Assembly (NCBI GenBank): GCA_021784125.1
Contig: JAJXTF010000008.1
Coordinates: 1-35,380 of the forward strand
DNA from: Pseudomonadota bacterium
GTDB taxonomy: Bacteria; Pseudomonadota; Gammaproteobacteria; Burkholderiales; Casimicrobiaceae
DNA: 35,380 nt
Direction of reading: 5' to 3'
Within the stretch, counting starts at the first letter, position 1, and every line of letters begins with the position of its first letter. Below the pieces are notes generated by a model. The model had not been told where the DNA came from. It saw only the letters and a list, made by a program, of their open reading frames with translations, and made no database searches. This document shows positions 16,996 to 19,474 of the stretch, in pieces. The translations under genes were made by a program, and so were the position numbers.

Positions 16996-17805
16996 ATGTC
17001 CGACCTGCGTCCGGCCGCCGTGGCCGGAACCTTCTATCCGAAAGCCCCGACGGCGCTCGCAGCCGCGGTGGGTGCCTGCCTCCATGCCGCGGCAGGTTCG
17101 CGAGGGCCCGCCGGGTCCACGCCGCCCAAGGCGGTGATCGTGCCGCACGCCGGGTACGTCTACTCGGGCGCGATCGCCGCGGCCGCCTACGCGCGGCTGG
17201 CCGTCGGGCGCGACGTGATCCGCCGGGTGGTCCTGCTCGGTCCCACCCACCGCGTGCCGGTGCGCGGCCTGGCGCTGCCGTCGGCGCGGGCCTTCGCGAC
17301 GCCGCTGGGCGAGGTCGCCGTCGACCTCGATGCGGCCACGGCTGCGCTCGGGCTGCCGCAGGTGCGCGCAAGCGATGCCGCGCACGCCCTCGAGCACTCG
17401 CTCGAGGTCCAGCTGCCGTTCCTGCAGGCGGTGCTCGGCGCGTTCCAGATCGTTCCTTTCGCCGTCGGCGACGCGACGCCCGAGGAGGTCGCCGAGGTCA
17501 TCGATCTGCTGTGGGGCGGTCCCGAGACGCTGTTCGTCGTCAGTTCGGACCTGTCGCATTACCATCGTTACGCCGACGCGCAGGCCATCGATCGCGCGAC
17601 CGCCGAGGCGATCCTCGGGCTTTCGCCCGACCTCGATCACGAGCAGGCCTGCGGCGCGACGCCCATCAACGGCCTGCTGCTTTCCGCGCGCAGGCGCGGA
17701 CTGGCGCCGGAGCTGCTCGACCTGCGCAACTCGGGCGACACCGCCGGGGACCGGTCGCGCGTCGTCGGCTACGCGTCCTTCGCCTTCGTCGCGGGCCCCC
17801 GATGA
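16996..17805 (+). CDS. amrB: AmmeMemoRadiSam system protein B (MEMO family)
   Basis: 269 residues. The N-terminus MSDLRPAAVAGTFYP is diagnostic of MEMO proteins and fixes the start. The family has the fold of class III extradiol dioxygenases (LigB). The metal-site residues known from human MEMO1 have counterparts: H51 (VPHAGYVYSG), H85 (GPTHRV), D185 and H188 (SSDLSHYH), and C219 (EQACGATPING). The eukaryotic homologue binds copper or iron and affects cell motility, while the bacterial function is not established. It is the first gene of a three-gene unit; its stop overlaps the next start (ATGA). Same fold family as YgiD at 29833. Confidence 0.93.
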   Translation: MSDLRPAAVAGTFYPKAPTALAAAVGACLHAAAGSRGPAGSTPPKAVIVPHAGYVYSGAIAAAAYARLAVGRDVIRRVVLLGPTHRVPVRGLALPSARAFATPLGEVAVDLDAATAALGLPQVRASDAAHALEHSLEVQLPFLQAVLGAFQIVPFAVGDATPEEVAEVIDLLWGGPETLFVVSSDLSHYHRYADAQAIDRATAEAILGLSPDLDHEQACGATPINGLLLSARRRGLAPELLDLRNSGDTAGDRSRVVGYASFAFVAGPR

Positions 17806-18389
17806 GCATCGACGCCCTCGGAGACGCGCTGCTCGCGGTCGCCCGCTCGGCGATCGGCGGCTCGCTCGGCCTGCCCGGCGGCGCCGACCCAAGTCACCCC
17901 GGGCTGTCCCGGCCGGCCGCGACCTTCGTGACCCTGAAGATGCACGGCGAGCTGCGCGGTTGCATCGGCACGCTGGAGCCTGTCCGCCCCTTGGGCCTGG
18001 ACGTACGCGAGAATGCGCTCGCCGCGGCGTTTCGCGATCCGCGTTTCCTGCCGCTGACCACGGGCGAATTCGAGGCGACCACGGTCGAGGTGTCGCTGCT
18101 GTCGGAAAGCCGGGCCCTCGACATCGCCGGCGAGGACGACCTGCTCGCCCAACTGCATCCCGGACACGACGGCCTGGTCCTCCAGTACGGACACCATCGC
18201 GCCACCTTCCTGCCGCAGGTCTGGGACGCGCTCGCCGACCCGCGGGATTTCGTCGTCGCGCTGAAGCGCAAGGCGGGATTGCCGGCGGATTTCTGGAGCC
18301 CGCGGATGGTCGTGTCCCGCTACGGGGTCACGAAGTGGGCCGAAGCGGCGGCGGTCGCGGCGAAAGCCGGCGCAACGTTGCGGCGATGA
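17802..18389 (+). CDS. amrA: AmmeMemoRadiSam system protein A (AMMECR1 domain)
   Basis: 195 residues, almost entirely an AMMECR1 domain. The family motif LRGCIGTLEP is at 51-60, with further conserved stretches ENALAAAFRDPRF, TVEVSLLSE, HDGLVLQYG and TFLPQVWD. Human AMMECR1 is linked to a developmental syndrome, but no enzymatic activity has been firmly shown for the family as far as I know. The domain is soluble, with no signal peptide. It overlaps both neighbours by ATGA junctions, so the three proteins are made in a coupled way and probably act together. Confidence 0.92.
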   Translation: MSIDALGDALLAVARSAIGGSLGLPGGADPSHPGLSRPAATFVTLKMHGELRGCIGTLEPVRPLGLDVRENALAAAFRDPRFLPLTTGEFEATTVEVSLLSESRALDIAGEDDLLAQLHPGHDGLVLQYGHHRATFLPQVWDALADPRDFVVALKRKAGLPADFWSPRMVVSRYGVTKWAEAAAVAAKAGATLRR

Positions 18390-19474
18390 GCAACCATCCC
18401 GGCCGCTGGTGGCATCGCCTCGACGACGGCCGCATCCAGTGCGACCTGTGTCCGCGCGACTGCCGCCTGCACGAAGGCCAGCGCGGTGCGTGCTTCGTGC
18501 GCCAGCGCGAAGGCGATGGCATCGTGCTGACGACCTGGGGCCGCTCGTCGGGTTTCTGCATCGACCCGATCGAGAAGAAGCCGCTGAACCATTTCCACCC
18601 CGGCTCCAGCGTGTTCTCGTTCGGCACCGCCGGCTGCAACCTCGCCTGCAAGTTCTGCCAGAACTGGGACATCTCGAAATCGCGCGAGATGGACACGCTG
18701 ATGGATGCGGCGTCCCCCGCGACGATCGCCGAGGCGGCGGCCGACACCGGTTGCGCCAGCGTCGCGTTCACCTACAACGACCCGGTCATCTTCGCCGAGT
18801 ACGCGATGGACGTCGCCGACGCCTGCCACGCGCGCGGCATCGCGACGGTCGCGGTCACCGCAGGCTACATCGGCGCCGATGCGCGCCGCGAGTTCTACGC
18901 GAAGATGGACGCCGCCAACGTCGACCTCAAGGGCTTCACCGACGACTTCTACGTCAAGCTCTGCGGCGCGCGCCTGCAACCGGTGCTCGACACCCTCGTC
19001 TACCTGAAGCACGAGACCGATGTCTGGCTGGAGATCACGACGCTGCTGATCCCGGGGAAGAACGATTCCGACGCCGAAGTCGAGGCGATGTGCGCCTGGA
19101 TCGTGCGCGAACTCGGCGGCGAGGTGCCGCTGCATTTCACCGCCTTCCACCCCGACTACAAGATGACGGACCTGCGTGCGACGCCCGCGGCCACGCTGAC
19201 CCGGGCGCGCGACATCGCGCTCTCCGCAGGCCTGCGCTACGTCTACACCGGCAACGTGCACGACCGGACCGGCGGGACGACGTCCTGCCCGGGCTGCGGC
19301 GCCGCGCTGATCGTCCGCGACTGGCACGACATCCTGCGCTACGACCTGACCGCCGAAGGCCGCTGCAACCGCTGCCAGACGCGGCTCCCGGGGCGCTTCG
19401 GCCCCCTGGACGGGCGGCGCGGGCACGCCCGCCGCCGCATCCCGGTGCGCCTCGCGATGAATGCGCCTGCCTGA
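18386..19474 (+). CDS. amrS: AmmeMemoRadiSam system radical SAM enzyme
   Basis: 362 residues. The radical SAM core has the cluster motif C84-x3-C88-x2-C91 (AGCNLACKFCQNWD). The glycine-rich and strand motifs of a TIM-barrel fold follow (ASVAFTYNDPVIFAEYA, LEITTLLIPGKNDSD). An N-terminal cysteine group (CDLCPRDC at 19-26, and C36) and a C-terminal pair of CxxC motifs (SCPGCG, CNRC) suggest additional metal or cluster sites. It resembles pyruvate formate-lyase-activating enzymes, but the substrate is unknown. The partners AMMECR1 and MEMO are encoded directly upstream with ATGA overlaps. The last 30 residues are Arg-rich. Confidence 0.93.
   Translation: MSNHPGRWWHRLDDGRIQCDLCPRDCRLHEGQRGACFVRQREGDGIVLTTWGRSSGFCIDPIEKKPLNHFHPGSSVFSFGTAGCNLACKFCQNWDISKSREMDTLMDAASPATIAEAAADTGCASVAFTYNDPVIFAEYAMDVADACHARGIATVAVTAGYIGADARREFYAKMDAANVDLKGFTDDFYVKLCGARLQPVLDTLVYLKHETDVWLEITTLLIPGKNDSDAEVEAMCAWIVRELGGEVPLHFTAFHPDYKMTDLRATPAATLTRARDIALSAGLRYVYTGNVHDRTGGTTSCPGCGAALIVRDWHDILRYDLTAEGRCNRCQTRLPGRFGPLDGRRGHARRRIPVRLAMNAPA

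Follow-up and report, generated by a model that had tools for sequence, protein, structure and literature searches.

An AmmeMemoRadiSam operon in which MEMO and AMMECR1 probably act as a single two-domain iron protein on the substrate of their radical SAM partner

What joint task is performed by MEMO, AMMECR1 and a radical SAM enzyme, the products of three overlapping genes in a 35,380-nucleotide stretch of DNA from a member of the Casimicrobiaceae (contig JAJXTF010000008.1; the whole of this stretch is hereafter called the window)? The first gene, at 16996-17805 (+), encodes a MEMO protein of 269 residues (AmmeMemoRadiSam system protein B); the second, at 17802-18389 (+), an AMMECR1 protein of 195 residues (AmmeMemoRadiSam system protein A); and the third, at 18386-19474 (+), the AmmeMemoRadiSam radical SAM enzyme of 362 residues. 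A preliminary description, prepared from the sequence without database searches, had recognized here an operon with two ATGA overlaps at 16996-19474, and this is confirmed by the coordinates and by the NCBIfam and Pfam profiles. One ATGA, at 17802-17805 (+), contains the stop codon of MEMO and the start codon of AMMECR1, and the other, at 18386-18389 (+), contains the stop codon of AMMECR1 and the start codon of the radical SAM gene. All three proteins score above the curated cut-offs of their NCBIfam families, namely TIGR04336 for MEMO (E 4.5e-79), TIGR04335 for AMMECR1 (E 7.2e-55) and TIGR04337 for the radical SAM enzyme (E 2.1e-190), in agreement with the Pfam assignments Memo, AMMECR1 and Radical_SAM. 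This identification goes well past anything that chance would produce. The operon is an intact further copy of a three-gene system that has already been named AmmeMemoRadiSam (amrA, amrB, amrS) in NCBIfam and the literature, from which it differs in nothing of substance.

A 2019 study of MEMO contexts reportedly points in its abstract to nucleotide-base and isoprenoid modification, and some of the fusions and contexts described below may already be in print there. Memo-Ammecr1 systems were termed 'recently described' in a 2020 eLife paper (PMC7159879), AMMECR1 is listed as a priority unknown in archaea with presence in 429 of 524 genomes (PMC6393860), and the human proteins MEMO1 and AMMECR1 are of importance in cancer and in developmental disease (PMC11081632, PMC5502304). 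The preliminary description knew of no established reaction for the trio, and the accessible parts of the literature searched, a body that lacks most subscription journals, likewise name none. Our analysis makes it probable that in this AmmeMemoRadiSam operon MEMO and AMMECR1 constitute one two-domain iron protein, with the radical SAM enzyme acting on the same substrate, in chemistry that is independent of O2 and in a capacity other than that of an activase of glycyl-radical enzymes.

The wider occurrence of this arrangement was assessed in the best 80 of 588 related loci, which were found via the radical SAM gene and not via the fusions described below, and which lean to close relatives because the search patterns were derived from an alignment headed by the protein of the window itself. 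The full trio is present in 68 of these 80 loci (hits below 40 bits were left out of the trio and fusion counts), and the order MEMO, AMMECR1, radical SAM is seen in 64 of them as well as in the window, where the three genes are adjacent. With starts found mechanically and domain hits covering less than 70% of the profile left out, a 4-base overlap occurs at 30 of 64 second junctions (AMMECR1/radical SAM) and at six of 67 first junctions (MEMO/AMMECR1) in this set of 80, and in the window and its relatives the second junction is ATGA in eight of nine loci. The two overlaps of the window are real, and of an ordinary kind. Tight coupling had been put forward earlier as the argument for joint action; gene fusions and co-occurrence furnish stronger evidence than the overlaps.

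Single-frame MEMO-AMMECR1 proteins, always in the order MEMO then AMMECR1, were found in the loci examined in 77 distinct versions (81 before repeats were removed), many of these loci having been chosen for looking fused and a few of the frames being cut at contig ends. A fairer figure is provided by the best 80 of 588 loci, picked by the radical SAM gene, where 18 of 67 first junctions are fused. Two of the fusions (L010 and L011) belong to genomes of the same genus as the window, so that what is an overlap between separate MEMO and AMMECR1 genes in the window is a continuous frame in these relatives. Because of such fusions, the two proteins very probably work as a unit. One fusion from a Comamonadaceae genome (L114; 445 residues), predicted with 112 aligned rows, yielded a pLDDT of 96.9 and a pTM of 0.91; judged by these overall scores, rather than by coordinates or pairwise errors, its two domains appear to be confidently placed against each other, such a pTM being hard to reach otherwise. 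This prediction concerns a fused relative and not the separate chains that the overlapping genes of the window encode; these would be expected to form the same complex as the fusion. In structure searches, the MEMO half of L114 matches human MEMO1 (7l5c; Z 34.1, rmsd 1.8, 255 aligned, 29% identity to the model), whose chain corresponds to the MEMO half alone, and the other half matches an archaeal AMMECR1 (1vaj; Z 20.9, rmsd 2.9, 181 aligned); the next matches are TK2203 and dioxygenases, from Z 17.1 downward. Thus, natural fusions and a confidently predicted example suggest that MEMO and AMMECR1 function together as a two-domain protein, and a fused MEMO-AMMECR1 encoded beside its radical SAM partner offers a single purifiable protein for finding the reaction.

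The distribution of the three genes points in the same direction for MEMO and AMMECR1 and is looser for the radical SAM enzyme. Accepting a radical SAM match only when it exceeded the family cut-off, and disregarding kinship, we found the full trio in 85 of 249 genomes of the phylum and none of the three in 151; the remainder comprises four genomes with the radical SAM gene only, one with MEMO and radical SAM (G203), one with AMMECR1 and radical SAM (G213, where the match runs to the contig end), and seven with MEMO and AMMECR1 but without a radical SAM gene over the cut-off, six of them 57 to 78% complete and one (G175) 96% complete. Accordingly counted, and again ignoring kinship, MEMO and AMMECR1 occur together in 92 genomes, with a single genome having MEMO without AMMECR1 and another the reverse, and the radical SAM gene and MEMO occur together in 86, against five and seven with one of the two. 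Among 31 relatives of the window's genome, 11 have all three and 18 have none; one (G008) lacks MEMO at a contig end and one (G017) has a weak MEMO match alone. Within the window's own genus the radical SAM gene is over the cut-off in eight of 19 genomes, several of which are drafts, suggesting that the trio is gained or lost as a set. Among 14 control genomes, Thermus composti has a MEMO match without AMMECR1 and Haloferax volcanii an AMMECR1 match without MEMO.

Several genomes depart from the complete set. We re-examined nine of them, namely eight of the 12 among the best-80 loci that lack the full trio (L124, L127, L162 and L163 being left out) plus G203. MEMO is the only partner found in the genomes of L130, L140 and G203, and for L130 and G203 an AMMECR1 match was absent at the genome level while MEMO and radical SAM were retained; neither partner was found in L094, L150 and L156 (L140, L150 and L156 are metagenome-assembled genomes). 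MEMO and AMMECR1 lie elsewhere in the genome, unlinked to the radical SAM gene, in L134, L159 and L160, and in G036 the radical SAM gene is about 1.5 Mb from a MEMO-AMMECR1 fusion on the same contig. As for the four radical-SAM-only genomes of the 249, two that are nearly complete (G229 and G052) contain a full-length match, one (G246) has a frame broken by a stop and one (G160) has a longer form. A strict rule that all three must be present was rejected in view of the genomes with an incomplete set. Since the radical SAM gene occurs without either partner in four of the 249 and in three of the nine re-examined genomes, the enzyme can serve something else, and it is not strictly dependent on MEMO or AMMECR1. 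MEMO and AMMECR1 come close to behaving as a single protein, with the radical SAM enzyme as a looser associate. Of the earlier proposal of a three-protein pathway acting on one substrate, joint action gains from fusions and co-occurrence; to treat the three as equal members is an oversimplification, the radical SAM gene being at times unlinked or alone.

The chemistry accessible to MEMO was approached through its metal site. The residues that had been listed as intact metal ligands are all present in the window protein and are each kept in at least 99 of 103 rows with a letter at the site in an alignment (A2) that, after length and redundancy filters, took in 70 of the 77 fusions: H51 in 102, H85 in 100, D185 in all 103, H188 in 102 and C219 in 99. 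When the whole domain is aligned by profile to human MEMO1 (7kq8), C219 falls opposite C244, chain numbering being shifted by 3. The iron ligands of human MEMO1 are H49, H81 and C244, equivalents of the His, His and Glu of LigB (PMC11081632). The His, His, Cys ligands of the MEMO family (H51, H85 and C219) are thus present and conserved in the window protein, which shares the metal-ligand positions of the human structures (7kq8, 7l5c, 3bcz), and by this alignment MEMO would supply a 2-His-1-Cys site for a putative iron. We also observed a MEMO homologue of 50.4% identity at MT836786.1:3906-4685 (H7), in an unannotated 8,758-base 'Bacteriophage sp.' record from human faeces that is perhaps a bacterial contig.

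A rival reading would make MEMO an extradiol dioxygenase of the classic type, which uses O2 to cleave an aromatic product of the radical SAM enzyme. The MEMO half of L114 indeed has a fold like that of class III extradiol dioxygenases such as LigAB, DesB and aminophenol dioxygenase, examples of these matches being 2-aminophenol 1,6-dioxygenase (7txy; Z 16.4, rmsd 3.1, 209 aligned), 3wr8 at Z 15.3 and 1bou at Z 13.9, and human MEMO1 binds iron with a geometry similar to that of these enzymes (PMC11081632). However, their 2-His-1-Glu iron triad is not found in the window MEMO, where C219 occupies the position of the Glu, a replacement that is nearly constant across A2, and human MEMO1 displayed no dioxygenase activity on the substrates tried (PMC11081632). 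Ring cleavage by MEMO is putative at most, and we regard a classic dioxygenase role as improbable.

The chemistry of the trio most likely proceeds without need for O2. MEMO matches are present in the control genomes of Thermotoga maritima, Methanocaldococcus jannaschii and Methanosarcina acetivorans, which are strict anaerobes, and this, together with the status of AMMECR1 as a marker of anaerobes, disfavours an O2-dependent reaction, including that of an extradiol dioxygenase, as the general function. AMMECR1 is one of seven published anaerobe indicators, present in 3.38% of 4,227 aerobes and in 50.66% of 1,293 anaerobes (PMC13386939, Table 1). This argument is not uniform, because in the present phylum the trio shows no positive association with NRDD, an anaerobic reductase, and the window itself carries a cytochrome oxidase assembly gene. 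An association between the trio and NRDD had been expected in the phylum and the opposite was seen, with NRDD in two of 85 trio genomes and 23 of 164 others (p 0.003, ignoring kinship).

AMMECR1 would contribute its LRGCIG loop. This motif, which the preliminary description had reported as intact, indeed lies at residues 51-56 of the window protein, and its cysteine, C54, is kept in 98 of the 102 A2 rows with a letter at the site, which suggests that it takes part in the same function as the MEMO metal site. The only rows of this alignment that lack either C219 or the AMMECR1 cysteine are four fusions (L188, L195, L196 and L197) that have lost both, together with one or more of the other key residues of MEMO; each is a second copy in a genome that has an intact fusion elsewhere. 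At the sequence level, this joint loss fits one shared MEMO-AMMECR1 function, although it perhaps represents one event because all four belong to a single genus (g106 of family f63). A more specific form of the two-domain reading, which we put forward only tentatively, is that the MEMO iron and the LRGCIG cysteine make up a composite site across a fixed domain interface, which would be fed or primed by the radical SAM enzyme in O2-independent chemistry. If this were true, human MEMO1 and AMMECR1 would be the halves of an ancient enzyme that are now studied apart.

In the third protein, the radical SAM enzyme, the CxxxCxxC motif (C84, C88, C91) is intact, as was reported earlier, and shows no variation among 114 radical SAM sequences; the same holds for all of the N-terminal group C19, C22, C26 and C36 and, from the C-terminal group, C301, C327 and C330, with C304 kept in at least 90%. 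The extra N- and C-terminal cysteines, previously remarked upon in the window copy, are therefore a family trait rather than a peculiarity of this protein, and the C-terminal CxxC...CxxC reads as a putative zinc ribbon. A structural model (pLDDT 88.9, pTM 0.91) is nearest to pyruvate formate-lyase (PFL) activating enzyme (3cb8; Z 23.7, rmsd 2.5, 224 aligned), followed as the next kind by NifB (Z 17.8, rmsd 2.8, 219 aligned). With the PFL activase structures (3cb8, 3c8f) the window enzyme has in common the radical SAM core and the CxxxCxxC motif, to which it adds the N-terminal and C-terminal four-cysteine groups. By analogy with its family, it would generate a 5'-deoxyadenosyl radical. It would act before or after MEMO-AMMECR1 on the same substrate, which may be a peptide or a small molecule. 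A 2025 paper describes fusions of Memo-like proteins to peptide-recognition domains (PMC12710340), on account of which a peptide is a possible substrate.

The nearness to PFL activase bears on two further explanations of the role of the radical SAM enzyme. It could be a maturase that modifies MEMO-AMMECR1, for instance at the LRGCIG cysteine, leaving MEMO-AMMECR1 as the working enzyme. One solved complex of the activase (3cb8) holds a peptide substrate, C54 is conserved as described above and the radical SAM gene is over the cut-off in 85 of the 92 genomes with both MEMO and AMMECR1, all of which would suit a maturase; the four of 249 genomes that have it without either partner, albeit one in broken form, would not. 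Moreover, MEMO and AMMECR1 have human relatives, and we know of no radical SAM partner of the AmmeMemoRadiSam family in human, which counts against maturation as well. On balance we consider a maturase rather unlikely. Alternatively, the enzyme could activate a known glycyl-radical enzyme, its place in the operon being incidental. Apart from the structural resemblance, this idea could draw on matches to PF01228 or PF13597 in 14 of 85 trio genomes, a share no rarer than the 27 of 164 in other genomes; it is equally no commoner with the trio. Against it, 71 of the 85 trio genomes have neither family (13 have PF01228 and two have PF13597), and the window's own genome, which is 94.85% complete so that one could lie in the portion absent from the assembly, yielded no match to PF01228 or PF13597; hence the enzyme is unlikely to activate any known glycyl-radical enzyme. 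Its score of 57.4 bits against the PFL activase family TIGR02493 is likewise far below the cut-off of 231.75 bits. It is most likely not such an activase, and we assign this explanation a very small probability.

Eleven genomes (L065-L075) encode a radical SAM protein of a second form, which is shorter and in nine of them directly adjoins a MEMO-AMMECR1 fusion. All six second-form proteins aligned have Asp at the position of C304. Eight of the 11 genomes also have a match to the usual form; in G131 this match is partial, and G071 and G202 have none over the cut-off. Ten second-form matches contain one in-frame TGA, and we considered selenocysteine; this was rejected, as the TGA is a stop that follows a conserved GVW terminus, and the sequence beyond it is unrelated. 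Homologues of the radical SAM protein with about 70% identity also occur on large Sinorhizobium plasmids (H2, NZ_CP121660.1; H3, NZ_CP133152.1), the plasmid table having no gene at these places.

Finally, the neighbourhood of the trio was examined for further partners. The window contains a VIT1-family (iron transporter-like) gene at 13503-14198 (-) and a hemerythrin-domain gene at 24130-24879 (-), neither of which adjoins the trio. A role in metal homeostasis, with MEMO handling iron or copper, the other two proteins in support and no small-molecule product, would accord with the binding of iron and copper by human MEMO1 and its genetic links to iron (PMC11081632; PMC11918410). Yet homologues of the window's VIT1 and hemerythrin genes (E 1e-15) were not found in stretches of up to 8 kb on either side of the trio in the best 80 of 588 loci, and the near-constant company of the radical SAM enzyme suggests catalysis; we accordingly think metal homeostasis quite unlikely as the main role. 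Homologues of the window's two Hsp20 genes, PrfC, VIT1 and hemerythrin each occur in at most one of the best 80 of 588 loci, and those of the ABC-F gene upstream of the trio in five of them. In 21 of the same 80, the radical SAM gene is followed on its own strand by a gene for an alpha/beta hydrolase (e.g. L115:9065-9691 (+)), a count that may miss more such genes because genes were called by a simple codon-bias rule. These hydrolase genes beside the trio are seen in Betaproteobacteria and in at least one Gammaproteobacterium (L104), and the L115 protein, the sole one put to Pfam, matches Abhydrolase_6 and DLH; in the window, an Hsp20 gene takes the place of the hydrolase. Other genes follow the radical SAM gene in a few genomes. 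A SAM hydroxide adenosyltransferase gene does so at L156:9133-9957 (+), in a genome where neither MEMO nor AMMECR1 was matched. A Peptidase_C13 (caspase/legumain-like) gene does so at L080:4685-5515 (-) in G229, a genome that likewise lacks matches to both; a similar gene is present in L081, and a homologue occurs in G246, the genome whose radical SAM frame is broken.
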